From a virus, in the IMG/VR virus record IMGVR_UViG_3300025112_000047, positions 1-41,612 of that record: a DNA stretch of 41,612 nt; one strand, given 5' to 3'. The notes below the pieces were generated by a model, which worked only from the letters and a program-made list of their open reading frames with translations, was not told where the DNA came from and ran no database searches. Both the position numbers and the translations under genes were made by a program. Shown one piece after another: positions 7,824 to 41,612 of this stretch. How positions within the stretch are numbered: the stretch's first letter is position 1; every line of letters begins with the position of its first letter.

Positions 7824-8732
7824 TTACGCGCCGGGCGAACCAAACACGCCACGGAAGTCGGTGACGCCGAAGGAATAACGCTCATAGCACTTGGCTTTAG
7901 CATTCTCCGTATCGAAATCATTGTCCTGCGTGAACTGTGCAGCAGTACGCTCGTAGCAGATCAAGCCGCGAGGTGCGTTGGTCCGAATAAACCAGGCATC
8001 GGTGTCGGTCAGGTAGTGGTTGACTTTAACCCCTTCAGGGATCGAGCCATCCGCGCGCAAGACGTTCACCGCGTTGTTCGCGGTATCGTTCTGAAGTGTC
8101 GAGTTCAGAATACGGCCGGCGTCAAACGAGAGAGCCGGGGGTACAATGAGACACTTAGGCATCAGACTGATTTTCAGACCACGGTCGTTTGTGGCGGTCA
8201 TAATCTGAATAACCAGATCTTCAACAGACGCCTCAGAAAGATCGGAGGCGGTAGCAAGCTTGTTAGACTGACTGCCCGACAGAGTCGGGTGATTGGTCGC
8301 TAACAGTTTAGTACCGTCGCCGAAAGTGTAGCTGCCGCTAAACCCGCGATTGTAGACTTGGGCAGCCACGGTCTCTTTGGTTTGACGCATTGAGAACGCA
8401 TTAGCAGCAGCGCGGCGCTTAGAGACAACCTCGTATTGGCTATCGTCCAGTTCTTCCTTAGTCACGATGTAACCAAGAGAGTAAGCGACGTGCGTATACC
8501 GAGACACATAACCTTGTGTCTCCGAATCGTACTGCACGGCGGCACCTTGCGCTTTAGCCGGCGCAAGACCAAACCCGGTCAGTTGGACGTCTTCTTCGTA
8601 CGCTTGCGTAGAAGTGTCCCGGTCGAACAGCATAGTATGCTCAACCTTGTGTTCGTCGTAGTTACGACCCCACCAGACCTTAACGCCAGGCCAGAGGGCT
8701 TTCGGGTGACTACCGGTTGTAATAACAGCCAT
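7824..8732 (-). CDS. Major capsid protein
   Basis: 302 residues, led by the very strong ribosome site AGGAGGGT. The protein has the HK97-type order seen in Mu gpT-like head proteins: an N-terminal region with 'VEHTMLFDRDTSTQAYEED', an E-loop-like stretch ('GYVSRYTHVAYSLGYIVTKE'), a spine helix ('RRAAANAFSMRQTKETVAAQ') and the C-terminal 'CYERYSFGVTDFRGVFGS'. It follows scaffold and decoration-like genes and precedes the tail-adaptor genes, where a capsid gene is expected. Bases 8050-8090, inside this gene, are exactly repeated at 28931-28971. Confidence 0.88.
   Translation of the reverse strand: MAVITTGSHPKALWPGVKVWWGRNYDEHKVEHTMLFDRDTSTQAYEEDVQLTGFGLAPAKAQGAAVQYDSETQGYVSRYTHVAYSLGYIVTKEELDDSQYEVVSKRRAAANAFSMRQTKETVAAQVYNRGFSGSYTFGDGTKLLATNHPTLSGSQSNKLATASDLSEASVEDLVIQIMTATNDRGLKISLMPKCLIVPPALSFDAGRILNSTLQNDTANNAVNVLRADGSIPEGVKVNHYLTDTDAWFIRTNAPRGLICYERTAAQFTQDNDFDTENAKAKCYERYSFGVTDFRGVFGSPGA
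8050..8090. repeat. 41-bp exact repeat, capsid copy
   Basis: Identical and same-orientation copy of 28931-28971. Here it lies inside the minus-strand capsid gene (coding near 'NDTANNAVNVLRADG'). It contains a 6-bp stem with a TTGTT loop (8068-8084). The match stops sharply at both ends. Confidence 0.97.
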
Positions 8733-14964: not shown

Positions 14965-15296
14965 ATCACGGCATCTACGGTGAAGCTCACTGCGTCCGCG
15001 ATCAGGCTCTTCGGATCGGCGTCGTCGTAGGTCAGTTGCGCCTGCCACGCGCCGGCCTGATCGAGCAGGCCGCTCTCGATGGTGTAGTCTACGTACTCAC
15101 TCGCGGCAAGCACGCCTAGCGTGGGGTCAGTTACACCGGCGCCCACAACAATGCCGTCTGCGGTGACTTTGGACACGGTACTCTCGTCAGGCTTTACGAA
15201 CTTGATCGTGATCTCGGTTTCGCTCGCCATGTTGTAACCGGTAGAATAGCGGAATAACCGCCCGTATTCGCCGACTTTCAGATTTGTATTGGCCAT
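14961..15296 (-). CDS. Beta-rich structural protein; 5' end duplicated upstream
   Basis: 111 residues with an all-beta pattern ('ETEITIKFVKPDESTVSKVT', 'SEYVDYTIESGLLDQAGAWQ', 'ADAVSFTVDAVI'), like a small Ig-like or tail/head accessory protein. Its first 19 codons (MANTNLKVGEYGRLFRYST) are repeated almost exactly at the start of the 43-residue reading frame at 15574-15705. Both copies follow a TAGATG junction. It probably belongs to the virion set, but no known family is claimed. Confidence 0.6.
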   Translation of the reverse strand: MANTNLKVGEYGRLFRYSTGYNMASETEITIKFVKPDESTVSKVTADGIVVGAGVTDPTLGVLAASEYVDYTIESGLLDQAGAWQAQLTYDDADPKSLIADAVSFTVDAVI

Positions 15297-15299
15297 CTA
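15239..15299. repeat. 61-bp near-exact direct repeat, copy A
   Basis: Matches 15648-15708 with three differences. It covers the stop codon of one gene and the first 19 codons of the next in both places. The homology ends abruptly within codon 20. Confidence 0.92.
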
Positions 15300-15584: not shown

Positions 15585-15705
15585 TGGTGTCCTCGGGAAA
15601 ATAAGAGTTTATGAAATCGTCGTCCAGCTCAATGCCGAGCGCCGTGGCGGTAGAATAACGGAATAACCGCCCGTATTCGCCGACTTTCAGATTTACATTG
15701 GCCAT
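15574..15705 (-). CDS. 43-residue hybrid small protein
   Basis: The reading frame starts ATG at 15705, right after the TAG of the upstream gene, and stops inside the start of the 95-residue gene. Residues 1-19 copy the N-terminus of the 111-residue protein (MANVNLKVGEYGRLFRYST). The rest ('ATALGIELDDDFINSYFPED') is unrelated to it. It looks like either a recombination product or a small real gene that gained its front end from its neighbour. No function is assigned. Confidence 0.4.
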   Translation of the reverse strand: MANVNLKVGEYGRLFRYSTATALGIELDDDFINSYFPEDTNGA

Positions 15706-15708
15706 CTA
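15648..15708. repeat. 61-bp near-exact direct repeat, copy B
   Basis: See copy A at 15239-15299. The repeat gives the small hybrid reading frame its start codon and first 19 codons. Confidence 0.92.
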
Positions 15709-15974: not shown

Positions 15975-16889
15975 TTAGCCATGGTAACTCCTGAACAAAC
16001 GGCTAGCGGCCTCCTGCGACGGAGCTTCCGCTACGTGTGTGGGGTGCGCGGGTCGGGCGCGGGCGGCCGACGCCGACTGATTTGCGCGATAGCGCGCGCC
16101 AGACGTTTGCGTGGGCTCGTACCCCACGCGGGCCATCAGCTCACTGTTGCGCTTGTCGTAGAAATTACGATTGCCGTCCCGGTCGGTCCAATGCACGTCG
16201 CCCATCTGTGCGTACGCTTCGTCCCAATCCGGCCGGTTTTTCGATAGCGCCTTAAAAATTTTAGTTTTTTTCGCGTCGGGCCCCATGCGGAAAGCAAGAT
16301 CTGTGAGTACGAGCTGAATGCCCTCGCCTCGATCCTCTAGCCCCATATCACGGACGTTCTGCTCGATATCGGCGCGTAGTATATACTCCGCTTCCTCGAC
16401 ACTGAGCCCGTTACGCCAGGGGATGCCGTGGATTTTGCCGGATTCCAGCTCGTGATCTTGAATTTTGTGCCCGTGGCCGACGTTCTGGCCGGGCTCGGGG
16501 GCTTGGACTACGGGGAAACGGCCGGAGGCGTCGGGCTTGTAGCCTTCCTGCTGTCGGATGAAGTCTGCTGTTGCGTTGCTGCGATCCGGGCGCCTGATGC
16601 GGTTAATGCGGGCACTCCGCTCTGCGGCGGCTTTCTCCGCCTCTGGTCTTGTCCGCCACGCTCCTAGCGGGGGATTCAAGCCTGCGCGAAATAAATCCAT
16701 TGCTTCAGCTTGGGTGTGGCGCCTGCCGTTTACTATCGAAGCGAAATTTAGCCATCTATCGCCTACTTTCTCCGTAAACGAGCTTTCTGTGGAGGTACTG
16801 CCATCAGGGTTGCGGATAAAAGGACGGGTGACATCGATTGGCGTTTCGCCGTACCCGGATATCGAATAATCTGGTGTCTCGTCAGTCAT
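15975..16889 (-). CDS. GH24 (T4 lysozyme-like) muramidase with N-terminal virion-type domain
   Basis: 304 residues. Residues 41-96 are a short W-N-x-x-S-x-V module shared with the 95-residue protein. From residue 105 the pattern is that of GH24 lysozymes: 'FIRQQEGYKPD' with catalytic Glu115, 'VGHGHKI' at 137-143, 'LTDLAFRMGP' at 195-204, and 'YDKRNSELMAR' near 244. The Thr of the classical Glu/Asp/Thr triad appears replaced by Asn136, and the Asp is not obvious. It cleaves peptidoglycan, either as endolysin or as a virion lysin. No signal peptide was seen. AAAGG precedes the ATG. As first gene of the long minus-strand unit it may be made early in the late phase. Confidence 0.75.
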   Translation of the reverse strand: MTDETPDYSISGYGETPIDVTRPFIRNPDGSTSTESSFTEKVGDRWLNFASIVNGRRHTQAEAMDLFRAGLNPPLGAWRTRPEAEKAAAERSARINRIRRPDRSNATADFIRQQEGYKPDASGRFPVVQAPEPGQNVGHGHKIQDHELESGKIHGIPWRNGLSVEEAEYILRADIEQNVRDMGLEDRGEGIQLVLTDLAFRMGPDAKKTKIFKALSKNRPDWDEAYAQMGDVHWTDRDGNRNFYDKRNSELMARVGYEPTQTSGARYRANQSASAARARPAHPTHVAEAPSQEAASRLFRSYHG

Positions 16890-17184: not shown

Positions 17185-17292
17185 GCCTGCAGTCTTGCCT
17201 GCAGTCTTGCCTGCAGTCTTGCCTGCAGTCTTGCCTGCAGCCTGGCCTGCAGCCTGGCCTGCAGCCTGGCCTGCAGCCTGGCCTGCAGCCTG
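17185..17292. repeat. Nine tandem 12-bp repeats at the divergent junction
   Basis: Units 1-4 read gcctgcagtctt and units 5-9 read gcctgcagcctg, end to end from 17185 to 17292. Each unit holds the palindrome CTGCAG. The array sits in the non-coding gap between the late minus-strand unit and the plus-strand small-gene island. Frames on both strands stay open through it because 12 is divisible by 3, but they look like by-products. It could bind TerS (pac), a replication initiator or a regulator. Confidence 0.95.
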
Positions 17293-17387: not shown

Positions 17388-17434
17388 CACACTATTATGT
17401 GTTTTTTTATTTGCTAAAATCACATAATAGTGTA
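17388..17434. promoter_or_regulatory. Paired operator-like inverted repeats upstream of the small-gene island
   Basis: ACACTATTATGTG at 17389-17401 and its exact inverse CACATAATAGTGT at 17421-17433 are separated by 19 bases. Each arm, with one more base, is itself a near palindrome (CACA-N6-TGTG). The centres are 32 bp apart, about three DNA turns. Candidate target of the Aca2-like protein encoded at the end of the same operon. A stem-loop reading is possible but the stem is AT-rich. Confidence 0.75.
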
Positions 17435-17438
17435 TTTT
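17411..17438 (+). promoter_or_regulatory. Promoter for the plus-strand small-gene island
   Basis: TTGCTA (17411-17416), 16-bp spacer, TATTTT (17433-17438). The right operator arm occupies the spacer and the left arm lies just upstream of the -35, the usual arrangement for repression. The expected start is near 17445, giving a leader of about 40 bases before the first ATG at 17484. Confidence 0.5.
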
Positions 17439-17483
17439 TCTCTCTGCGGCCCACATAAGGATGGGCTAAACGGAGAAAAAATC

Positions 17484-17744
17484 ATGGGTATCACAGACGA
17501 AAGTTTGAGTCTCGAATCTCTCACCAACGATCAAGCCGCCCACAAGGCCATCATGGCTGCTCATAGCGTTTTGCTCGGGCTGATCGAGACCGCCAACAAT
17601 TACGATTGCACCCGGTACGAGGACGCTGTTGGCGAGCTTCGCGATCTGGGCAGCGACCTTGAGCATCAGGGTGATATGATTGACGATGAGCGTGACTTGG
17701 CGCAGTACGAGTTCGACAGCGCCAACCGTCGTGCGCGGAGATGA
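17484..17744 (+). CDS. Small acidic helical protein; first gene of candidate anti-defence operon
   Basis: 86 residues from the ATG at 17484, preceded by GGAG. An in-frame codon at 17430 lies inside the operator and is rejected. The protein is acidic and helical ('LESLTNDQAAHKAIMAAHSV', 'YEDAVGELRDLGSDLEHQGD') with a basic end 'SANRRARR'. It resembles no family I know. It is the first gene after the operator-bearing promoter, in an operon that ends with an Aca2-like regulator, so a small inhibitor of host defence is a reasonable inference, not a demonstration. Confidence 0.6.
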   Translation: MGITDESLSLESLTNDQAAHKAIMAAHSVLLGLIETANNYDCTRYEDAVGELRDLGSDLEHQGDMIDDERDLAQYEFDSANRRARR

Positions 17745-17760
17745 ATTTTCTGCAAGAATA

Positions 17761-17794
17761 GGCAAGCTAAATTGTAAGACCAACGGCATGGGCA
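17761..17794 (+). repeat. 34-bp intergenic repeat, copy 1
   Basis: The 34 bases match 18508-18541 with two differences (core GGCAAGCTAAATTGTAAGAC). Both copies lie about 30 bases before the start of a small gene, which suggests a shared leader or regulatory element or a remnant of gene duplication. Confidence 0.9.
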
Positions 17795-17826
17795 ATGGAG
17801 CCCGGTTTTAGAAAAGGGTGGAAATT

Positions 17827-18066
17827 ATGACATCACTAAATTACGAATTAGGCGAGTTAGGTTTGTTGTTAACAAGCTCAGACGGCGAGCATGTTGGTGA
17901 CATTTTGACGATAAGTGAACGCGGCAGAGCCACAGAATATGTTATTGACATAATACCTAGGCAAGGGCGCGGCTGGCGGTCAAGAAGCTACAGGTCATTG
18001 GAAGCAGCAAAATATCGCGCTCTTTCCGAATATATTGAAATGGTGGACAAAGAAGTCGGTCAATAA
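17827..18066 (+). CDS. Small unknown protein of the island
   Basis: 79 residues from the ATG at 17827, with AAGGG eight bases ahead. A GTG three codons earlier is possible. Beta strands ('GLLLTSSDGEHVGDILTISE', 'ATEYVIDIIPRQ') are followed by a basic helix ('RSRSYRSLEAAKYRALSEYI'). No family was recognised. The start context GGTGGAAATTATG is shared with the gene at 18314. Confidence 0.55.
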   Translation: MTSLNYELGELGLLLTSSDGEHVGDILTISERGRATEYVIDIIPRQGRGWRSRSYRSLEAAKYRALSEYIEMVDKEVGQ

Positions 18067-18079
18067 AGGGAATCAGATC

Positions 18080-18298
18080 ATGAACTACACAACAGAAATA
18101 GAAGTTGGTGACCGGATTAGATTCACCTCACCATGCCGCGACGGTCGCCCCAACGTATGGCGCGTAGTCACCGGGTTTTGGAAAGTGTTTAATGCCGATG
18201 GGTGCACGGTTGCGTACGTCGAGCCAACTGTGCGGTATCACGGTTGTGGCAATTTCATAGTACATTGGAACGAAATCGATGAGCATGAGACTGTATAG
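18080..18298 (+). CDS. Small beta-rich protein of the island
   Basis: 72 residues from the ATG at 18080 with AAAGGG upstream. An earlier in-frame ATG at 18035 lies inside the previous gene. Strands such as 'IEVGDRIRFTSPCRDGRPNV' and 'CTVAYVEPTVRYHGCGNFIV' suggest a small barrel-like (SH3/OB-like) fold. Three cysteines are present. Family not recognised. It begins 13 bases after the previous stop. Confidence 0.55.
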   Translation: MNYTTEIEVGDRIRFTSPCRDGRPNVWRVVTGFWKVFNADGCTVAYVEPTVRYHGCGNFIVHWNEIDEHETV

Positions 18299-18313
18299 AT
18301 AATGGTGGAAATT

Positions 18314-18466
18314 ATGCATATTTGGGAAGAATGCGGAATTGATGGAACAATGGGAAGCATTAAAGCCCACGATCAAACAATTTCCGCACCCGAACAAGTT
18401 TTTTGCGGAGCAAGGGAAAACATATTTGGATTATCAGGAATTTGCGCTTCGCAGTTGCGGGACTAG
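18314..18466 (+). CDS. Short unknown protein of the island (alternative frame 18342-18524)
   Basis: 50 residues from the ATG at 18314, which has the same GGTGGAAATT leader as the gene at 17827. It begins 'MHIWEECGIDGTMGSIKAHD' and ends 'ICASQLRD', with three cysteines. A second frame, 18342-18524 (61 residues, 'MEQWEALKPTIKQFPHPNKF'), overlaps it, has a weaker ribosome site and ends inside the second 34-bp repeat. Only one is likely to be real. The first is preferred for its leader, but protein evidence is lacking. Confidence 0.35.
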   Translation: MHIWEECGIDGTMGSIKAHDQTISAPEQVFCGARENIFGLSGICASQLRD

Positions 18467-18507
18467 CGGCACAATCCGCAACCTGAAAAAAATATGTGCG
18501 GTGAATT

Positions 18508-18541
18508 GGCAAGCTAAATTGTAAGACCAGCGGCAAGGGCA
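18508..18541 (+). repeat. 34-bp intergenic repeat, copy 2
   Basis: See 17761-17794. This copy stands 31 bases before the ATG at 18572. Confidence 0.9.
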
Positions 18542-18571
18542 TAAGGCCCAGCCAGCTTTAGGAGCAATATC

Positions 18572-18811
18572 ATGGAAAACACACCCATCCACATCGACGA
18601 ATTACTGGACGGCGGCGAGGAAGCCGTGCGGCAGAATGTCATCTTTTCCCTCGGCAAACCGTCTAAGGGTAAGTGGCACGGGGGCCTGTACATCAAGTGG
18701 CGGAATAAGAAAAATCGGGCGATCAACGCATTCGGCGAAACTAAGAAATCCGTTGCCGATAGTCTTCTTATCCAAGCGCGCCGGGAAGCTGAGTGGAAAT
18801 ATAAACGGTGA
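18572..18811 (+). CDS. Small basic protein next to the Aca2-like gene
   Basis: 79 residues; GGAG precedes the ATG. The N-terminus is acidic ('HIDELLDGGEEAVRQNVIFS'). The rest is basic and aromatic ('KGKWHGGLYIKWRNKKNRAI'), ending 'ARREAEWKYKR'. No family was recognised. Its stop overlaps the GTG start of the regulator gene (GTGA), so the two are translated together. In known acr-aca loci the gene directly before aca is often the anti-CRISPR, so this is the best single candidate here. Confidence 0.6.
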   Translation: MENTPIHIDELLDGGEEAVRQNVIFSLGKPSKGKWHGGLYIKWRNKKNRAINAFGETKKSVADSLLIQARREAEWKYKR

Positions 18812-19131
18812 CCCCCGCCGAATTTAAAACCGTTCGCGAAAGCCTCAACTTGTCGGCGAAAGACGTGGCTGACAGGTTGGGGCTCAAGTCCGACCGCACC
18901 ATCCGGTTTTGGGAGTCTGGTGGGCGGGGCATACCGGATGACGCCGCCGAGTTGCTGATCGATATGGACACGGTCGTCGAGCACGCGATCCTGCACGCGG
19001 TCGAGGCCGTCGAAGAAACTATCGCCGAGATCGGGCAACCACCCGCAAAGCCTGTCACCATTTCTCGATATGTGAGCGACGAGCAATTCGCGCGGCTTGA
19101 CCCAGAAAGCTTTAGCCTGCGCCATACGTAA
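18808..19131 (+). CDS. HTH regulator resembling anti-CRISPR-associated Aca2 / YdiL family
   Basis: 107 residues, GTG start. Residues 1-50 form an HTH: 'MTPAEFKTVRESLNLSAKDV' then 'ADRLGLKSDRTIRFWESGGR' then 'GIPDDAAELLIDMD'. The layout (T-x-x-E-F/L near the start, R-x-x-L-x-L, W-E-S-G, x-P-D-D, then a helical dimerisation half) is that of the YdiL/DUF1870 group to which Aca2 belongs; Aca2 is about 115-125 residues. Aca proteins repress their own acr operon by binding inverted repeats in its promoter, and such repeats are present at 17388-17434. The similarity is judged by eye. Other HTH phage regulators share parts of this pattern. Confidence 0.7.
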   Translation: MTPAEFKTVRESLNLSAKDVADRLGLKSDRTIRFWESGGRGIPDDAAELLIDMDTVVEHAILHAVEAVEETIAEIGQPPAKPVTISRYVSDEQFARLDPESFSLRHT

Positions 19132-19144
19132 TGTAGAAATTTAC

Positions 19145-19174
19145 TTGCAAACCACATAGCAACGTGATTATGAT
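19145..19174 (+). promoter_or_regulatory. Leaderless promoter of the Cro-like gene
   Basis: TTGCAA (19145-19150), 18 bp, TATGAT (19169-19174), then six bases to the ATG at 19181. Transcription would start at the A of the start codon, and no ribosome site is present. A CACATA...CGTG element at 19153-19166 lies in the spacer and matches 10 of 14 positions of the island operator. Confidence 0.6.
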
Positions 19175-19180
19175 CCTGGC

Positions 19181-19387
19181 ATGTCCACAATCGACGAATT
19201 AATCAACAGGGTTCGGGAATTTGCCACAGAGCGAAAATGGCGTCCGGCCAAGTTGGCCACAGAGGCGGGCCTGCACGCCAATACACTGCGGTCCATGTGG
19301 GACGATGGTTGGAGCCCCAACGCGGCGACACTTCGCAAGTTGGAAGAGATTATGCTTCCGGATAACGATCAGGAGGACGCGGCATGA
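19181..19387 (+). CDS. Small HTH (Cro/XRE-like) regulator
   Basis: 68 residues. The helix-turn-helix is 'PAKLATEAGLHANTLRSMWD' followed by 'AATLRKLEEIML', the usual XRE recognition and closing helices. The small size and own promoter suggest a Cro-type DNA-binding switch protein acting on phage promoters. It appears to be leaderless: the start codon is six bases after the -10. It follows the Aca2-like gene by 49 bases and is coupled (ATGA) to a tiny membrane protein. Confidence 0.7.
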   Translation: MSTIDELINRVREFATERKWRPAKLATEAGLHANTLRSMWDDGWSPNAATLRKLEEIMLPDNDQEDAA

Positions 19388-19536: not shown

Positions 19537-20001
19537 CTAAGCGGGGGGCTTAAGGCTAGCGGCCGGCGGCGCCGAGCTGCCCGGGGTAACGTCTATGATG
19601 GGCGGTGCATCGATGCCACGTGTTTGCCCGTCTATCTCTTTGAGTAGGTCAGTCAAAGCCGTGACAGTGTGCTCTACTTTCTCGGTTAAGAGCCCGTTAA
19701 CCTTGGCTTTTCCCATACTAGCGGATACGGCGGCGGCCGGCTGATCAAGGCTTAAGGCTAAAAGCCTGGCGTCTTCAAGCTCCCGGCTGATGGTTTCGCG
19801 GCTAACGCCTATTCTCACGGCGTTTCTGGCTTGAATCTCAGTGATTCGGGCTTTCACGTCGTCGCGTTTCGTCATGCGATGGGCGTTTTGTCGATTGGGG
19901 CTATATCCTGCTTCGGCGTATGCTTCCACAAGATCACCACCATTTGCCACCATTTGGGCGAACATTTCGAGCTTTGGTTTTAGCGGCGCGTCAATTTCCA
20001 T
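19537..20001 (-). CDS. terS: Terminase small subunit
   Basis: 154 residues. The pattern 'LKPKLEMFAQMVANGGDLVE' then 'AYAEAGYSPNRQNAHRMTKR' then 'DDVKARITEIQARNAVRIGV' is the small-terminase HTH family: an HTH reading 'AYxxAGY', then a helix of the form 'VxxRIxEI'. A long helix and a Pro/Ala tail follow. It binds the packaging start site and loads the large subunit. Unusually, it is encoded about 5 kb away from the large subunit, alone between a terminator and a convergent operon, with its own leaderless-type promoter. No Shine-Dalgarno sequence is visible. Confidence 0.78.
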   Translation of the reverse strand: MEIDAPLKPKLEMFAQMVANGGDLVEAYAEAGYSPNRQNAHRMTKRDDVKARITEIQARNAVRIGVSRETISRELEDARLLALSLDQPAAAVSASMGKAKVNGLLTEKVEHTVTALTDLLKEIDGQTRGIDAPPIIDVTPGSSAPPAASLKPPA

Positions 20002-20118: not shown

Positions 20119-21033
20119 TTACGCGGCTTTTGCGGGGTTTTCGATAGCCTGATACTTGGTTCCCAAGATCAAGTCGGCCGCTTTTTGGGCGGCGCTGGCG
20201 GCTTTAAAAATCGCTTTTTTGTCTTCGCGCAACACTTTCAACCATGATCGCAAATATTCGGCGTGATCTGGGCGGGGCTCGCCTGATATTTGGCAAGCGC
20301 CGCAAGTCATGGCGGCCGATAGTTCAGCGATTAATTCCTCAAAGGCATAGGCATCGTCGCCGAACGTGGCGCCAAATTGGCGGTCTAACCGGCTTTTATG
20401 TCCTGTAGAATGCGCCATCTCATGCAATAAAACGGCGTAGTATCCTTCGGTCGTTTTGAATTGCTCGGCGGCTGGCATGGTCACTTGATCATTGCCGCGG
20501 TGATAATAAGCGCGGTTATTGTGGCCAGTCGTCAAGCTCGGACCCTTTTGCATGTAATCAGCAAGCAGGGCGTCAACGTGCTTTTGGGGAGTCACACCGT
20601 CCGGCAATTTGACCGGCTCGCGTGCAGAGTCGATAACATCCTGAACGGGCCCGGTCACTTTCTCGGCCGGGAAAACCGTGTGGAACTTGGGGAACATAAA
20701 AGGGCGGATAGTTGGGTCATCCGGCCGGACGGTCACCCATGCGACCACATTAGTGCCCCAAAGCCCGGCCGGCACATCGTCTGGGCGTTTTTTGACCGAG
20801 CACCCAACGGATTTCCAAGCTTTAAATGTGCCGTATACCTGGCTGGCGCTATCATCCGCGTAAAGCAGGGGTACATTGATGCCCCGATACCGCCGGCCGA
20901 TTGTGGAAACGGGTCCGCGCCCTCCGAAACGGTCTACCCAGGGCTTAGACCATCCTTTTTTGATGCTCTTTTCTAGCTGCAAAATGATTTTATTGGTGAC
21001 TGTTTGGTAAACGTCTTTTCTGTTTTTAGTCAT
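20119..21033 (-). CDS. ardC: ArdC-like anti-restriction protein
   Basis: 304 residues from the ATG at 21033, preceded by AAGGAAA; the frame is open to 21135 but upstream starts lack ribosome sites. The N-terminal half is the ArdC ssDNA-binding domain ('VYQTVTNKIILQLEKSIKKG', 'RRYRGINVPLLYAD', 'GTNVVAWVTV'). The C-terminal half is a zincin-type domain with 'HEMAHSTGH' at 204-212 (two His ligands and the catalytic Glu) and a downstream 'AFEELIAE' offering the third ligand. ArdC proteins protect incoming DNA from restriction. Terminators lie on both sides, so it is its own transcription unit, probably early. Confidence 0.88.
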   Translation of the reverse strand: MTKNRKDVYQTVTNKIILQLEKSIKKGWSKPWVDRFGGRGPVSTIGRRYRGINVPLLYADDSASQVYGTFKAWKSVGCSVKKRPDDVPAGLWGTNVVAWVTVRPDDPTIRPFMFPKFHTVFPAEKVTGPVQDVIDSAREPVKLPDGVTPQKHVDALLADYMQKGPSLTTGHNNRAYYHRGNDQVTMPAAEQFKTTEGYYAVLLHEMAHSTGHKSRLDRQFGATFGDDAYAFEELIAELSAAMTCGACQISGEPRPDHAEYLRSWLKVLREDKKAIFKAASAAQKAADLILGTKYQAIENPAKAA

Positions 21034-21064
21034 TCTTTGGTTTCCTTCGTTGTACATAGGTAGA

Positions 21065-27364: not shown

Positions 27365-28330
27365 CTATACCGCCTTTGAGTAAAACCAGTTTTCAGTCGT
27401 TTCAGCCGCTAACGGCAGCCCTTCGGCCCAATCCGGCACGTATTCCATCTCAGCCGTTAACTCAGCTTTGACATTATCGGCGCGATCTTCGGGGCACTCC
27501 GCGATCAATTCATCGTGCGTATGCCCTACCAGATCGATCCACATATTATTGTTTTCGCACCGACGGATCGCGTCGCGCAGTAACGACGCCGCAGTGGCCT
27601 GCGTAACGTTCTCGGCCAGTATGCCGTGCCACATAGTTGTGCGAGTGTGACCTGACTGGTATCTCAATTTGTACTCAACCAGCTCGTCGCCATATTCGTC
27701 CTCGGTGACGACACGGTCGGTTTTTAGCGCGGGGTAGGTCAGAGCCCGCCCACAGGGCAGGAACATAAACATCGTACCAAACAAATATTTGGGCCGGTAT
27801 ACAAAGGTGACCCGCCCCGCTTTGAACTGTGAATTAGGTGACCGGCGGGCGTTTTGGAAAGCCTCGCCAAGCTGCGACCAAAAATTTGTCGCCCACTTAT
27901 TATTCTTGCGCCAGGTATCAACCACCCGGTTTGTTAGAGCCGCGTCGAGGCTCAAGCCATACGCGGCAGCCATCGAGGCCAGCGCGCCTACCCCGCCGCC
28001 GAAGCCCAAAGCCAGCTCGGCCACTTTACCTACTTGCCGCTCTTCTTTACTGACCTTAGCCGGGTCTACAGCATAAATGTCGCCAGCTGCGATTTCGTAC
28101 AGTCCCGGCAGATTGGGGTCGGCGTCACAGCTCTCAAATAGCTCTAGTCTGTGTTGCCCCGGCGTGCCCGCGAGCCACGGCAGAACCCGGGCCTCGATTG
28201 CGCTCCAGTCACTCCATACGAGCGTGTTGCCCGGGCCGGCGATCAGCATGGGGCGGATCAGCCGTGATAATGCGCGGGGAGCAGACCCGAATTTGGCCTC
28301 AAACTTGTCTATGACTAAAGCGTTAATCAA
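27365..28330 (-). CDS. DNA polymerase I (family A), C-terminal palm/fingers half
   Basis: 321 residues, TTG start at 28330 with GGAGGAG seven bases ahead. All three polymerase motifs are present: A 'WSDWSAIEARVLPWLAG' (Asp41), B 'ERQVGKVAELALGFGGG' (Arg98, Lys102) and C 'VGHTHDELIAE' (His272, Asp273, Glu274). The exonuclease, thumb and the 'GRFSS' segment are missing; they are in the gene at 31279-32520 on the other strand. Intact relatives are about 750-800 residues; the two halves add to 734. The start overlaps the VRR-NUC gene end, so the half is properly translated, not a fragment left by chance. Confidence 0.9.
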   Translation of the reverse strand: MINALVIDKFEAKFGSAPRALSRLIRPMLIAGPGNTLVWSDWSAIEARVLPWLAGTPGQHRLELFESCDADPNLPGLYEIAAGDIYAVDPAKVSKEERQVGKVAELALGFGGGVGALASMAAAYGLSLDAALTNRVVDTWRKNNKWATNFWSQLGEAFQNARRSPNSQFKAGRVTFVYRPKYLFGTMFMFLPCGRALTYPALKTDRVVTEDEYGDELVEYKLRYQSGHTRTTMWHGILAENVTQATAASLLRDAIRRCENNNMWIDLVGHTHDELIAECPEDRADNVKAELTAEMEYVPDWAEGLPLAAETTENWFYSKAV

Positions 28331-28897: not shown

Positions 28898-29208
28898 TGG
28901 CAGTGGACCCCCGACGTTTAATTACTGCTTTCCGCGCGCAAGACGTTCACCGCGTTGTTCGCGGTATCGTTACTTCGGTGACACCGAGAGGATGGAACGA
29001 ATTGGAAAATAATCAGGCTATGCTAGCCTTAAAAGCACTATCTAGAGAAAAGCAACAGCCGTACAACGTATACAAGCGTCGTAAATATACCACCTCGGAA
29101 GAGGCACACCTGCGGCTGTCGGACGTGGCGAATGAACTTGGCATGACAATTTCGGAGGTCGTTGAGGCACTGATTTTGTCGGGCATACCGGAGGCGAACG
29201 AGAAATGA
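28897..29208 (+). CDS. Small protein containing the capsid-derived 41-bp repeat
   Basis: 103 residues from the ATG at 28897 (TGATG coupling). Residues 12-25 ('FRAQDVHRVVRGIV') are encoded by the 41-bp copy of capsid DNA, read in the opposite sense to the capsid gene. The C-terminal part 'LRLSDVANELGMTISEVVEA' is an HTH-like or helical segment and looks like the ancestral protein. Because 41 is not a multiple of three, the insert must have changed frame or given the gene a new front. Its last codons overlap the next gene (ATGA). Confidence 0.5.
   Translation: MAVDPRRLITAFRAQDVHRVVRGIVTSVTPRGWNELENNQAMLALKALSREKQQPYNVYKRRKYTTSEEAHLRLSDVANELGMTISEVVEALILSGIPEANEK
28931..28971. repeat. 41-bp exact repeat, early-operon copy
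   Basis: Identical, same orientation, to 8050-8090 inside the capsid gene. It contains an ACCGCG/CGCGGT hairpin with a TTGTT loop (28949-28965). RNA from the plus-strand operon is perfectly complementary to the capsid mRNA over this stretch. Confidence 0.97.
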
Positions 29209-30488: not shown

Positions 30489-31202
30489 ATGGCGAATGAA
30501 ATAGCTGAACAAGACGAAGCGCTTGCGAAACTGCAGGTTGCGGTGCGCAACACCAAGCGGTCCATGCCGAATGTGGGTGGACCGGTGCCTTATCTGAAAA
30601 TGGGTAAGGATGGTTTTTGGGTGTTTGGTGCCAAAAACGAAGAGGTACAAGACGGCTCACTTTGGGCCATCGACCCACTGTCTTACCGGTACGGCTTTGT
30701 GTGCTGGACGAACTACCCTAAAGAGGCTAAGCGTAAAAATGAGAACCTCGGTGTAATGACCGTGGCGCTCGATGAAGAAGCGTTGACGCTGGACGACATG
30801 CCTACCCGGACGGACAAAGACACCGGGAAGAATTGGCCGTGGGCCCCTGTGATCGAAATGCGTCTTAAGTGCGTATTTGGTGAAGACCAGGGTACTGAGG
30901 TCTTATGGCAGACGTCGTCTGTGGGTGGCACAAGGCTCGGTTCAGAGTACCTTGAGGAGTTAGACCGCAACATCGCCAAGGGCCTACCAGTGGCCGTGGT
31001 GAAGTTGGTGTCGGAGTCTTATGACCACACGCAGTATGGGAAGATTTACACCCCGACGTTTGTGTATGATCGGTGGTTGCCTTTAGGGACCACCAGTCTG
31101 GACGACGCTCCAGAAGAGATCGAAGCTCCTGTTGCTGACGAAGAGGTTAAAAAAGACGCCGCTCCCGCTCCCACACGGAAGCGTCGTCGCCCGGCGGCCT
31201 AG
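30489..31202 (+). CDS. Unknown replication-operon protein, possible ssDNA-binding protein
   Basis: 237 residues. The core is beta-rich and aromatic ('PVPYLKMGKDGFWVFGAKNE', 'PLSYRYGFVCWTNYPKEAKR', 'TYGKI'-like 'HTQYGKIYTPTFVYDRWLPL'). The tail is acidic, then basic ('APTRKRRRPAA'). It stands between the nuclease and polymerase genes, where many phages encode a ssDNA-binding protein; that is the only basis for the suggestion. A strong terminator follows, so its level may be set apart from the polymerase. Confidence 0.5.
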   Translation: MANEIAEQDEALAKLQVAVRNTKRSMPNVGGPVPYLKMGKDGFWVFGAKNEEVQDGSLWAIDPLSYRYGFVCWTNYPKEAKRKNENLGVMTVALDEEALTLDDMPTRTDKDTGKNWPWAPVIEMRLKCVFGEDQGTEVLWQTSSVGGTRLGSEYLEELDRNIAKGLPVAVVKLVSESYDHTQYGKIYTPTFVYDRWLPLGTTSLDDAPEEIEAPVADEEVKKDAAPAPTRKRRRPAA

Positions 31203-31222
31203 CCCTCGGTTCTCTTTGTCAC

Positions 31223-31266
31223 CCCCGGCGGCAGAATCCTCCCCGCCTGCCGCCGGGGTCTTTTTA
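31223..31266 (+). terminator. Intrinsic terminator before the polymerase N-half
   Basis: Perfect 12-bp GC-rich stem (31223-31234 with 31247-31258), 12-base loop, then TCTTTTT. It lies inside a co-directional operon, so only part of transcription should reach the polymerase and helicase genes. Confidence 0.9.
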
Positions 31267-31278
31267 AATAAGGAAAAC

Positions 31279-32520
31279 ATGACCGACCTCGTACAATCCA
31301 TCGACCAAATCTGCTTCATGGATAGCGAAACGCGCCGAGTCGCGGGCACGACTTGCCCTAACGTGATCAAGGCGGGCGGTCACCGTTATTTTGACAACTG
31401 TTTCGCTACCATCTGGTCTTGGGCCGTCGGCAACGCCCCCATCGAAATTGCGTCTTTACGTCACGGTTTCGATGGGCGGCTGTCGTGGGAGCACGACGCG
31501 CCAGACAGGCTTAAAAGATTTTACGAGCGCGCAGAGCGCGGCGAAGCTTACTTCGCCGCCTGGAATATGGCGTTCGACCGGGGCGTGTGGAACGGTCCAC
31601 AAAGCGATTTCCCGCCCCTTCGCATTGATATGACCATCGACGTCATGGCACAGGCCGTCGCGGCCGGTTGCCCGGCCACTTTGGCGGGCGCATCGACGTG
31701 GCTAAACGTGGCGCAGAAGATGGAGGAAGGTAAAAAGCTGATCGACCTTTACGAGCCCCCGGACGGTCTGCAGCCATCAGACCGGCCCTACGATTGGGAC
31801 AGGTTTGAAGACTACGCGATCCGTGATTCGGAAGCACTGCGCGATGTGTACAACGTGACGCTACCGCTATCTCGGGAAGAATGGGAGGTTTACTGGGCCA
31901 GCGAGGCGATCAACGACCGGGGCGTGGGGCTGGATACTTATGCCTGTGCGGCCGTGTCTGTACTCGTTGACGAAAACCTTGCGCGCATGAACGAACGGGT
32001 TATTGCTTTGACGGGCGGCAAGGTCACGGCGATCACGCAGCCCGCCCGGATTATTGACTTCGTGGCGCCCATTCTGCGCGATCACGCTTCTGTAAGGCAG
32101 TCTCTCGTCAAGCGGAAGGCTAAGTTAGGCGACGACGGTACGATAATTCGACCAGAGAAGCTGTCTCTGAGCCGTGACAGGCTGGAAATAGTGCTTGTGT
32201 ACCTCGATGTCTTACAAGAGCGCGAGGGGTTGTCTGACGAGCTACAGCGCGTACACGAGCTGCTGACCTTACGTCATTATGGCGGGTCGGCTACGCCGGG
32301 TAAATTCTTGAAAGCCCTGAACGTATCGCACGGTGGGCGGCTCAAGGGACAGTATGTGTTCAACGGCGCGCCGCAGACCGGCCGGTTTAGCAGTCGCGGC
32401 GTTCAGATCCATAACCTAACCCGGGCTCACTTGGCCGAGCTGGAAGATGCAGCACTTAACGTCATATCCGCCTTGAAGGACAAACGGGTTCGCGCGCGGG
32501 TCAGAGAGATGGGGTACTGA
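31279..32520 (+). CDS. DNA polymerase I (family A), N-terminal exonuclease/thumb half
   Basis: 413 residues from the ATG at 31279 with AAGGA ahead; the open frame extends to 31132 but crosses the terminator. A DEDDy 3'-5' exonuclease is visible: 'FMDSETRR' (Asp15, Glu17), 'AAWNMAFD' (Asp100) and 'YAIRDSEAL' (Tyr179, Asp183). The thumb region 'LTLRHYGGSATPGKFLKAL' and the front of the polymerase fold 'FNGAPQTGRFSSRGVQIHNL' follow. Then the gene ends with 'ARVREMGY' and a stop. Motifs A, B and C are absent here and are in 27365-28330 on the minus strand. The two proteins are expected to associate. Confidence 0.88.
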   Translation: MTDLVQSIDQICFMDSETRRVAGTTCPNVIKAGGHRYFDNCFATIWSWAVGNAPIEIASLRHGFDGRLSWEHDAPDRLKRFYERAERGEAYFAAWNMAFDRGVWNGPQSDFPPLRIDMTIDVMAQAVAAGCPATLAGASTWLNVAQKMEEGKKLIDLYEPPDGLQPSDRPYDWDRFEDYAIRDSEALRDVYNVTLPLSREEWEVYWASEAINDRGVGLDTYACAAVSVLVDENLARMNERVIALTGGKVTAITQPARIIDFVAPILRDHASVRQSLVKRKAKLGDDGTIIRPEKLSLSRDRLEIVLVYLDVLQEREGLSDELQRVHELLTLRHYGGSATPGKFLKALNVSHGGRLKGQYVFNGAPQTGRFSSRGVQIHNLTRAHLAELEDAALNVISALKDKRVRARVREMGY

Positions 32521-38530: not shown

Positions 38531-41496
38531 TATTCACCTTCCGGCGGGCTAAAGTTTTCGTGTACTTCTGATTTGTCTAAATATTCCTGAAAACTGGACA
38601 CCAGTTTATCGTAGTGTTCCATGTATTGCACCCTCACAGCTTCGCGCGCATCTTCGTCTAGCGTTTGATCACGCAGCTTCCAATCTAAGCGCGACATCAC
38701 ATCTGCTATCTCGCGTTCTTTTTTTGTTATGTTAAGAGAACGTGTCTGGTGGGGCTCTACGGGGTATATGTTAATACCTACACCTCTTAATGCAGCTTGT
38801 GTCAGCGTGGGAGACGGGTCGCCGTAACGATTTACGTCGCTTCGATAGTGATCGTATAGCTTTCCCGCTAACCCTATATCAGTAAGCCAAGTTGGCGCGG
38901 CCATGCGCCACATATATCTAGTGATATCCGCCATCTGCACTGCAGGGGGGTCTGCTTTATTGGCTATCGGTCGCTCTGTATAAGGGTCTATATTTGTTTG
39001 GATCGCACTGAGTACTTGGGGGATTGGGCCCCCAAAAAACCCGGTATCTTTCAAAAGGCCTCGTATATCGCCGTCAGCCACCGTCCCTATTGCTTCAGCG
39101 AGCTGCCCCCACGGCATGATGTAGCCGAGATCCACAAACTGTATGCGCCTGTCTTCGTCTAGCACCGGGAGAGCGTACATACTGCTCTTGTTGTGTGTCC
39201 ACTGGGGCAAGGCTTTACGCAGAGCGTCAACGTCCTTTTGAGTAACATCGTACTGTTCTTCGATCATCTTAGCCATAGCAGTATTCATCACCATGTACGG
39301 CAGATACCGCTCGGGGTGCTTAACCGCAATTTCTGCCATCTGCCCGGTAGACTTGTACATGAAAGTTATGAAGGGGCTGCCTAACGGAGCACTTCGAGCC
39401 TTTCTCACCGCGTCGGGGATAAGCGAATAATCGAACAGAGCTTTATGCGCTTCCAGTGCGGCTTTCTCTTCGCCCACCCCCTTGCTAAGAAGATGGCGAA
39501 TCATGGCCGTTTTAAACACCGATTCAGATAGCTGGTAAATTTCTCCTGCTTTGTTACCTACGCTCCCCGCCATATACTTCACCGTGTCCAGCGGGCTTTT
39601 GGATTTATTAAGCATCTGTAGCATGTCTTCTTCGACGCGGTACAATTCGTTGTGGCTGAATGTCGTTGATGTCACGCCGTATTTCTGCGCGACTTTCCAT
39701 GCGTTCCCTCCTGTTTGCATGTCCCTGATAGCTCCGTAAACATTTTTAGGCACCGCGTGTAAAGGTACGCCCCCCAAGTTCATCAGAATAGCGTTCGATA
39801 TAAAGTTGCGTACCTGGGTAGGCGGGTTTAACGCCACTTTGGACAGCTTCCACAATTGGTTAGCGCGCACTGATTTATGGTATATTTTTCCTACAAGCGA
39901 GTCTGCGTCTGTAACAAACCCGACCGCGCCCTCGATGTCGTTGGCTATCTCTTTTCTTACTTCCATTCCCCGCAACGCGCCGTACCGGGGGTTATCGGGG
40001 ATAATTTTGTAGTCTATGTGCGGCACATCAATGGCCGCTTCGCCGCGTGCTACCTTCTCTAGTGGTGCTTCAGCCTGTTTAATCAACTCGTCCATTTCGT
40101 CGGCTAGCAACAGGACATCTGCCTGTTCTGCTTCGTCCATATACGAGGCTTGAGCTTTGAGCCGCGTGGATTCATCATACATCCACCGAGTAGACACGTT
40201 GCGGCCGTTCCACTCCACGACAGTGGTGGGGTTCACCCACTCCGGTTTTTTTGATATCTTCTGTAAGAAGGTATCCATCACTAAATCATGTGACGGTACA
40301 GCTATGCCCTTGGAAGCAACATACCCTGGGTCGGTAATTTCGCCGAGTATTATACGTCTCACGTCTTCGGGTATGTATTTCCGCGACCGTAGATACCCTT
40401 GGTCTGACAGCTTTTTACCCGCTGTTCCCTGCGCGCCGTCTCCCCGCTCAAGCAAGTGTTTTAGGTACACCCGAGGCAAGTAGCTTCCTCGATTCGCTTC
40501 ATACACTTCTTCCGACAGCTTGCCTCTTTTAACGAGTTCGCGCCCTATTTTATCTATTGTTTGTTTTGTCTGCCATGCAGCTACACGAACTTTACGAGAC
40601 TCTATGCCAGCCGGTAAGGCGTCTTTGGTCGTTAGAAATTCGTAGGCTGCTTTTTGATCCGCTTCAGAGGCGTTGTTAAACACTCTAGCTACGTGTTTGG
40701 TCACGTCATCAATGGCACTTATTTTTCCAAGCGTTCGATATCGAAGGGAAAGGTACTCATCTTTTTCAGGTACTTTGCCGAGGGGGGCTAATTTGTACCC
40801 GAACGTGTCGTAGAATCTGTTTGTGAACTGCTGCGCGTTATCTCGGTATATTTTAGCTACGCCCCCTGAGATCATTTTTCCGCCTTTGGCGCTGGCTTTT
40901 ACGAACCCAGCACCCACGCCCAAAGTCAGGGCCCCCGCGCCTACCGCGAATTTATTGCTGTAACTTTGAAAATCAGACACGTCCAACCCGGCGGCCTTGT
41001 ATGCCTCGTCTCTTTTTACGTCGTCTATCGCCAGCAGCATACTGACAAAAGGAGTAAAATCGGCCACGCCAATTTCTACGCCGTTGGTAGTGCCGAACTT
41101 ACCTATGGCTCGCCTGAGCGGTGGCGGGCCAGGTAAGTTTCGTATAGATGCAGGAGTCCGGCCAAAACGATCTAATGTGCGTTCGACGGGGTTTTTATCC
41201 CTTAGCCCGGTTTCAGACGCGGCGTCTAATCGTTTATACGGCCGCAACGGGCGCGATGTCTCCTGCGCGGCTGCATCCAACATCAACTGCTGCTGTTCTG
41301 TCACATCGTGCATACGAGTTGGCGGAGGCGCTAGAGCTTCGATCTCGTCTAGCGTAAACGTGTTTAGATTATGAGAGGGCGCAGAGCGCGCTTCGATTTC
41401 ATCGAGAGATACATAACGAGGACGCGTAGATACCGGGGCAGGGACCGTTTCATCGCCCGGCGCGTCTCTAGCCTCTATCTCTTCCAGCGTTAACAC
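38530..41496 (-). CDS. Large internal virion / ejection protein (large polyvalent protein type)
   Basis: 988 residues, GTG start three bases after the upstream stop (across the contig join). The first 58 residues carry three copies of a short motif ('LTLEEIEARDAP', 'VSLDEIEARSAP', 'FTLDEIEALAPP'). The middle and C-terminal part ('WKLSKVALNPPTQVRNFISN', 'GNKAGEIYQLSESVFKTAMI', 'PFITFMYKSTGQMAEIAVKH') matches the large polyvalent protein domain found in phage internal or ejected proteins. Hydrophobic segments near 180-200 and 785-800 may insert in membranes. It probably forms part of the trans-envelope DNA conduit. Confidence 0.75.
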   Translation of the reverse strand: MLTLEEIEARDAPGDETVPAPVSTRPRYVSLDEIEARSAPSHNLNTFTLDEIEALAPPPTRMHDVTEQQQLMLDAAAQETSRPLRPYKRLDAASETGLRDKNPVERTLDRFGRTPASIRNLPGPPPLRRAIGKFGTTNGVEIGVADFTPFVSMLLAIDDVKRDEAYKAAGLDVSDFQSYSNKFAVGAGALTLGVGAGFVKASAKGGKMISGGVAKIYRDNAQQFTNRFYDTFGYKLAPLGKVPEKDEYLSLRYRTLGKISAIDDVTKHVARVFNNASEADQKAAYEFLTTKDALPAGIESRKVRVAAWQTKQTIDKIGRELVKRGKLSEEVYEANRGSYLPRVYLKHLLERGDGAQGTAGKKLSDQGYLRSRKYIPEDVRRIILGEITDPGYVASKGIAVPSHDLVMDTFLQKISKKPEWVNPTTVVEWNGRNVSTRWMYDESTRLKAQASYMDEAEQADVLLLADEMDELIKQAEAPLEKVARGEAAIDVPHIDYKIIPDNPRYGALRGMEVRKEIANDIEGAVGFVTDADSLVGKIYHKSVRANQLWKLSKVALNPPTQVRNFISNAILMNLGGVPLHAVPKNVYGAIRDMQTGGNAWKVAQKYGVTSTTFSHNELYRVEEDMLQMLNKSKSPLDTVKYMAGSVGNKAGEIYQLSESVFKTAMIRHLLSKGVGEEKAALEAHKALFDYSLIPDAVRKARSAPLGSPFITFMYKSTGQMAEIAVKHPERYLPYMVMNTAMAKMIEEQYDVTQKDVDALRKALPQWTHNKSSMYALPVLDEDRRIQFVDLGYIMPWGQLAEAIGTVADGDIRGLLKDTGFFGGPIPQVLSAIQTNIDPYTERPIANKADPPAVQMADITRYMWRMAAPTWLTDIGLAGKLYDHYRSDVNRYGDPSPTLTQAALRGVGINIYPVEPHQTRSLNITKKEREIADVMSRLDWKLRDQTLDEDAREAVRVQYMEHYDKLVSSFQEYLDKSEVHENFSPPEGE

Positions 41497-41612
41497 GAGC
41501 TAGTCTGCCTCCTCAAACAAGCCCTGCCCTACGTACTTATATTTTCGCCCGTTAATTTCGTACACAGTTCCTTTATCCATGCGGGAAACGTCTACTCGTT
41601 GTTCGTCTGTCA
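41448..41612. repeat. Terminal direct repeat, right copy
   Basis: Matches 1-165 with one difference (g at 41503). See the left copy. Confidence 0.95.
41500..41612 (-). CDS. Partial 3' end of the 406-residue protein (duplicate)
   Basis: Same as 53-165: the last 37 codons of the Ala-Pro-repeat protein gene, cut by the contig end. The only difference changes the last codon from GAA (Glu) to GAC (Asp). Not a separate gene. Confidence 0.9.
   Translation of the reverse strand, partial: TDEQRVDVSRMDKGTVYEINGRKYKYVGQGLFEEAD

Follow-up and report, generated by a model that had tools for sequence, protein, structure and literature searches.

A probable autoregulated cargo operon of the acr-aca kind, with an Aca2-like regulator and an internal RNA element, in a phage genome

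The acrIF8-aca2 locus of Pectobacterium phage ZF40 consists of one small gene followed by a gene for an Aca2-type helix-turn-helix (HTH) regulator, with palindromes in its promoter and a second stem-loop just 5' of the ribosome-binding site of the small gene. Aca2 is said to bind RNA as well, repressing translation, a finding attributed to Birkholz et al. in 2024. Repression of transcription by Aca2 through DNA sites is described in PMC8434428 and PMC9410906, which also record Aca2-like regulators that occur without acr genes; known acr genes were upstream of 35 of 1223 Aca2-like genes, about 3% (PMC9410906). Here we describe a unit of similar composition at positions 17388-19131 (plus strand) of virus record IMGVR_UViG_3300025112_000047, which was analyzed over its whole length of 41,612 bases (the window). 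We consider it probable that this unit is an autoregulated acr-aca-type operon of phage cargo genes, in which an Aca2-like HTH protein acts at both the DNA and the RNA level.

The window has direct repeats at both ends (1-165 and 41448-41612, 99.4% identical) and is therefore probably a complete phage genome. A copy, IMGVR_UViG_3300002484_000083, is 100% identical to it over 14,341 bases and so offers no sequence variation. The unit is made up of small orphan open reading frames (ORFs 1 to 5) and the HTH gene, flanked by minus-strand units, namely a gene of unknown function at 15975-16889 and the terminase small subunit gene at 19537-20001. Its GC content is 0.46-0.50, against about 0.55 in the surroundings and 0.545 in the whole window, and a search with the 1.8-kb unit as DNA returned no match. 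As in acr-aca loci, the HTH gene lies directly 3' of small orphan genes on a virus record. The initial annotation, which proposed such a unit, was largely right about the architecture, to which an independent RNA signature is now added; it had missed the RNA element at 18531-18565 and a 39-nucleotide (nt) repeat before ORFs 2 and 5. The coupling of the HTH gene to ORF 5 through a GTGA overlap, which it also described, is present, although the HTH gene is not the last gene on this strand, as a second HTH-like ORF follows at 19181-19387.

The regulator (18808-19131, plus strand, 107 amino acids (aa), GTG start) was recognized from both sequence and fold. Among solved chains, phmmer placed Aca2 first (8w35 and 7vjo, E 1.5e-6), followed by SO3848 (1.9e-4) and Aca2 of another source (7ezy, 2.9e-4), and a tblastn search in phage records retrieved ZF40 Aca2 itself (E 1e-4, residues 1-56). 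Full-length BLASTP gave 26% identity to ZF40 Aca2 over 92 residues. Arg30, which is required for Aca2 autoregulation according to PMC8434428, is kept in register in the recognition helix of the alignment. A model built from eight sequences without templates (predicted local distance difference test (pLDDT) 85.2) was compared with solved structures, a check already suggested in the initial annotation, and the full-length fold was found in SO3848 (PDB 2ox6, DUF4447; Z 10.4), nearly equally in Aca2 (Z 10.1) and in YdiL (PDB 1s4k; Z 8.5), over 90-101 residues (90-91 for Aca2). The remaining matches span about 50-63 residues, corresponding to the HTH domain, except for a few long loose ones with a root-mean-square deviation above 6. 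The biological function of SO3848 and YdiL was not known as of PMC8434428.

The family assignment is accordingly a broad one. Of the two Pfam families concerned, the regulator passes the cut-off only for DUF4447 (PF14590; 30.4 bits, cut-off 27.2), whereas on Aca2_YdiL (PF08965), where ZF40 Aca2 scores 89.9 bits, it reaches 23.6 bits against a cut-off of 23.8; it also has an HTH_3 match. In a 21-row tree the window sequence stands outside the five-row ZF40 group (94/94), and the forks near it are weak (60/85). Searches for PF14590 and PF08965 found no member in 114 and 143 genomes, respectively, of the class of genome G002, so that SO3848 and YdiL are not represented in the tree; relatives of the regulator were present in 3 of 385 and 3 of 369 genomes, two query genomes counted in. 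The regulator thus belongs to the Aca2/YdiL/SO3848 family in the wider sense; the strict label Aca2 is not supported, given the score just under the cut-off, the position outside the ZF40 branch of a weak tree and the absence of the C-terminal helix. The label Aca2-like is supported by sequence, by fold and by the independent RNA element described below, and to that extent the earlier identification holds.

Relatives of 158-166 aa were found in Parachitinimonas, in Kiloniella, in a Burkholderiaceae genome and in a viral contig. Those of Parachitinimonas caeni (locus L091) and Kiloniella laminariae (locus L092) are 38-39% identical to the window regulator and are likewise encoded directly 3' of an orphan gene (ATGA overlap and 1-nt gap, respectively), which has the same GCTTTAGGAGCAA leader with a stem-loop. 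They differ from the window protein in their length of 158-159 aa with a full C-terminal part, and in their GTTCG..CGAAC operators.

A stem-loop precedes the pre-regulator gene in ZF40 (acrIF8), in a Serratia plasmid, in Kiloniella, in Parachitinimonas and in the window, where it is found at 18531-18565 (plus strand) before ORF 5, with the loop AUAAG, followed by GCUUUAGGAGC, the ribosome-binding site. In all five leaders the loop has 4-5 nt, with A first and G last, and the ribosome-binding site is directly 3', reading GCTTTAGGAGCAA in Kiloniella, Parachitinimonas and the window. An RNA model was built from four (ZF40, the Serratia plasmid, Kiloniella and Parachitinimonas) of seven aligned leaders from outside the window; the other three, two from Pasteurella phages and one from Mycobacterium, were left out because they were misaligned by one column. 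In the four-leader stem 94.3% of cells pair and 8 of 9 pairs are changed on both sides; neither this number nor the covariation score was reached by any of 500 shuffles, and shifting the partner by one column cuts pairing to 31-40%. When the model was run unfiltered on both strands of the whole window, the top match was 18531-18565 (22.6 bits, E 1.2e-4), with a runner-up of 12.1 bits. The top score in 78 terminase-bearing control loci (889,093 bases) was 16.4 bits (L033, 6453-6488), obtained with default filters, under which the window match scores the same. After addition of the ORF 5 leader 8 of 9 pairs still covary, a count matched by 2 of 500 shuffles, while the covariation score was matched by none. 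A covarying stem-loop before the ribosome-binding site of a cargo gene, as in RNA control of the Aca2 type, is thus present in this unit in the ORF 5 leader only. Rfam gave nothing over the gathering score in the window, and the ZF40 leader is in no Rfam family either.

At the DNA level, ACACTATTATGTG at 17389-17401 has its perfect reverse complement at 17421-17433. This 13-nt inverted repeat (17389-17433, no strand assigned) comprises two mutually inverted operator-like CAC-N6-GTG sites, 31 bp from centre to centre. Such a repeat was present in 3 of 5000 shuffles of the local 200 nt and in 2 of 100 whole-window shuffles; the window has three more distinct repeats of equal grade elsewhere, four in all, so that the operator repeat is not unique, and exact CACATAATAGTG is confined within the window to the two operator-like sites. 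Among viral contigs the repeat sequence was found in the identical copy only. The paired inverted repeats of the initial annotation are therefore real, but the promoter that it placed with them was not recovered, as a consensus scan of 17388-17434 found no consensus sigma-70 promoter.

In ZF40, Parachitinimonas and Kiloniella the palindromes 5' of the pre-regulator gene are of the GTTCG..CGAAC type (GTTCGC..GCGAAC in ZF40). Position 33 of the recognition helix is Gln in these three and in the Serratia plasmid, and Arg in the window regulator; the change from Gln33 to Arg may, we infer, explain the different operator. In the ORF 1 leader, CACATAAGGATG (3 mismatches) was considered as a third operator site and rejected, as the window has 25 such matches against 21.3 expected. 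Weak Rfam hits on the inverted repeat (animal microRNA and other families) were set aside as chance matches to a palindrome.

We propose that the regulator would bind the two CAC-N6-GTG sites and repress transcription of the unit. Once accumulated, it may also bind the stem-loop at 18531-18565 and cover the GGAG site, which would shut down translation of ORF 5 and, via the overlap, of the regulator itself. The unit would then be expressed in a burst early in infection and subsequently damped. A role of the orphan genes, and of ORF 5 in particular, in countering host defence is less certain; the kinship of the regulator to anti-CRISPR regulators and the acr-type hairpin before ORF 5 make them good candidates for it. 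The low share of Aca2-like genes that have acr genes upstream, given above, calls for caution on an anti-CRISPR function. Compared with ZF40, the window has several cargo genes and not one, and its RNA element is internal to the operon, before the last cargo gene.

A number of observations weigh against this proposal. The regulator ends after alpha5 in the alignment and is without alpha6, which in ZF40 Aca2 forms much of the dimer interface (PMC8434428). The operator is not of the type found in ZF40, Parachitinimonas and Kiloniella, and the stretch around it gave no consensus sigma-70 promoter. The score of the RNA model owes much to GCUUUAGGAGC, which is identical in two training leaders, and the model that includes ORF 5 does not recognize the leaders of ORF 1 (no match) and ORF 2 (4.8 bits). 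The RNA element is also not universal among relatives. In the 1.5 kb before the regulator, a looser descriptor, written with knowledge of the ORF 5 leader, gave matches in 7 of the 24 named and 2 of the 20 viral loci that had been held out; the sister-group loci L093, L095 and L136 gave none upstream. The strict RNA model R1 gave only 5 matches at E <=5 in 42 other loci, two of them rightly placed (L143, and L156, a copy of L138).

The looser descriptor was derived from seven loci, so that its matches on those seven are partly by construction. Its rate upstream of the regulator was 0.222 per kb, against 0.053 elsewhere in the named loci and 0.017 in the terminase loci. The seven held-out named matches are partly non-independent, as L156 is a near copy of L138, and L144, L152 and L153 are mycobacteriophages. 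In the window the descriptor has four plus-strand matches without the open-frame condition, and with it ORF 5 only, on either strand. The top matches of RNA model R2 were the two Pasteurella leaders, in the right place (15.6 and 13.3 bits, E 0.15 and 0.67), and both R1 and R2 missed L137. The RNA element is thus genuine in some members of the family, and the fact that others lack it is informative. In the mycobacteriophages Typha (L144, 800-4271), Cracklewink and Nadezda (L152 and L153), 2-3 similar leaders composed of a hairpin and a ribosome-binding site were noticed near the HTH gene; those of Typha precede the annotated genes 44, 46 and 51.

Among the alternatives, it is quite possible, if on the lower side of even, that the same regulatory device drives other phage cargo, such as genes for host takeover, superinfection exclusion or replication control. 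Aca2-like regulators without acr genes are known, as noted above, and in the relatives studied here the regulators adjoin ParB-like, LPD29/LPD30 or unknown genes. The unit itself points the other way, being AT-rich orphan cargo in a packaging module beside an ArdC gene. Such a setting is typical of counter-defence or moron genes.

We find it somewhat doubtful that any of the small genes encodes a strict anti-CRISPR, an inhibitor of host CRISPR-Cas. ORF 5 occupies the position of acrIF8 in ZF40 and has a leader of the same kind, and close relatives of the regulator sit on mobile elements. The small proteins, however, match no known family in Pfam, PHROGs, NCBIfam or PADLOC, and the 35 in 1223 figure speaks against it as well (PMC9410906).

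A bolder version of our proposal, which appears unlikely in full, would have a multi-gene counter-defence operon under one truncated Aca2-like protein with a hierarchy of sites. The CAC-N6-GTG operator, re-specified by Arg33, would silence the whole unit, while the internal RNA element would tune ORF 5 and the regulator apart from ORFs 1-4; the hairpins of ORFs 1 and 2 would be diverged RNA sites, and the 39-nt repeat would allow cargo swapping by recombination under kept control. The hairpin hiding the ribosome-binding site of ORF 1 and the repeat in the ORF 2 leader are leads for such a multi-site reading and not evidence for it. As proven RNA sites these two leaders were dropped, since the RNA model recognizes neither.

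Two further explanations are poorly placed. It is quite improbable that ORF 5 and the HTH gene encode toxin and antitoxin, in this order, of a HigBA- or MqsRA-like pair: the genes overlap and the HTH domain is similar to HigA2 and MqsA, but the HigA2 similarity is weaker and confined to about residues 1-59, Pfam, PHROGs and NCBIfam gave no match of ORF 5 to a toxin, and the RNA element is an Aca2-type one. An ordinary lysogeny repressor with the inverted repeat as its operator, which would suit a phage genome, the HTH_3 match and the second HTH ORF downstream, preceded by a promoter-like sequence of its own, is highly improbable in view of a fold that beyond the HTH matches Aca2, SO3848 and YdiL only, and of the absence of a noticed integrase in the ORF list of the window, which was not scanned systematically for one.

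If the proposal of an autoregulated acr-aca-type operon is correct, it would extend RNA-plus-DNA control of the Aca2 type to a sister group of regulators carried by phages and mobile elements of, among others, alpha- and betaproteobacteria. The signature of a stem-loop followed by GCUUUAGGAGC would mark an orphan gene under such control and allow counter-defence genes to be nominated without recourse to homology, beginning with ORF 5 and the genes that precede the regulators in L091 and L092. In addition, a regulator that does without the dimer helix known from Aca2 would illustrate a way of shortening the fold.

Five plus-strand frames between minus-strand units had been listed, at 17484, 17827, 18080, 18314 and 18572, and four of them are retained. 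ORF 1 (17484-17744, 86 aa), ORF 2 (17827-18066, 79 aa), ORF 3 (18080-18298, 72 aa) and ORF 5 (18572-18811, 79 aa, in the position of the acr gene and overlapping the regulator gene by 4 nt) are orphans. The frame at 18314 was probably misframed: 18342-18524 (60 aa), here ORF 4, scores +0.068 per codon in codon usage, against -0.149 for the overlapping 18314-18466 (50 aa) that it replaces. Codon usage of ORF 1, ORF 5, the HTH gene and the second HTH-like ORF is like that of the phage's own genes; ORFs 2 and 3 (GC 0.44 and 0.50) have weak scores, with their own frame best. The 39-nt repeat is found at 17756-17794, in the leader of ORF 2, and at 18503-18541, where it spans the end of ORF 4, including its stop, and the leader of ORF 5; the copies are 92% identical, and the ORF 2 leader thus begins with a copy of the ORF 5 leader. 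The leader of ORF 1 has a hairpin at 17440-17486 (plus strand) with the loop CAUAAGGA; in its outer stem the GGAG ribosome-binding site is base-paired. Over 17440-17500 its fold has a z of -2.68, 2 of 200 shuffles being equally stable, and its stability ranks 6 among 46 leaders.

A search for homologues of the small genes beside other aca genes had been suggested in the initial annotation. ORFs 1, 2, 3 and 5 had no match in 50,697 phage records and nothing significant among solved PDB chains, and in viral contigs ORFs 1, 3 and 5 were found in the identical copy only. Apart from the HTH protein, the proteins of the unit had no convincing match in Pfam, PHROGs or NCBIfam; PADLOC gave no convincing match in the unit, the mad1 hit of the HTH protein (E 0.0044) being a short HTH match. 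The predicted structure of ORF 5 (pLDDT 50.6) was too poor for a structure search.

The neighbouring ArdC gene, counted by the initial annotation in an anti-defence cluster, is real and encodes an ArdC-type anti-restriction protein (20119-21057), but it lies on the opposite, minus strand in a separate unit. Both the ArdC N-terminal domain (ArdcN, 7.8e-16) and the zincin-like metallopeptidase domain (MPTase-PolyVal, 3.9e-44) were found with Pfam, and phrog_7245 matched at 1.1e-62. The second HTH-like ORF (19181-19387, plus strand) starts 49 nt after the HTH gene and has its own promoter-like sequence, TTGCAA-18-TATGAT (19145-19174), which would put the transcription start at about its ATG; this frame is therefore a candidate for leaderless expression. 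The spacer of this promoter-like sequence contains CACATAGCAACGTG, which is similar to the operator. Just 5' of the operon, at 17185-17292, there are nine head-to-tail 12-nt repeats (GCCTGCAGTCTT, GCCTGCAGCCTG).

Outside the window, the closest full-length relative of the regulator (L091, 6001-12090) adjoins a CRISPR-like repeat array of 5 copies, followed by genes for a Csy4-like protein and a DinG-like helicase, which we read as a type IV CRISPR locus. In two Streptomyces plasmids (L139, 2389-3384; L150, 2365-3381) the Aca2-like HTH forms the C-terminal half of an annotated protein of greater length, which resembles a fusion of cargo and regulator. Elsewhere in the window, the ORF at 27365-28330 (minus strand) codes for the C-terminal region of a family A DNA polymerase; the ORF at 31132-32520 (plus strand) has no Pfam hit and looks like the absent N-terminal part, which suggests a polymerase split over opposite strands. 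A 41-bp exact direct repeat is present at 8050-8090 and 28931-28971, and a 61-nt repeat (95%; 15239-15299 and 15648-15708) duplicates the start of a gene of the structural region.

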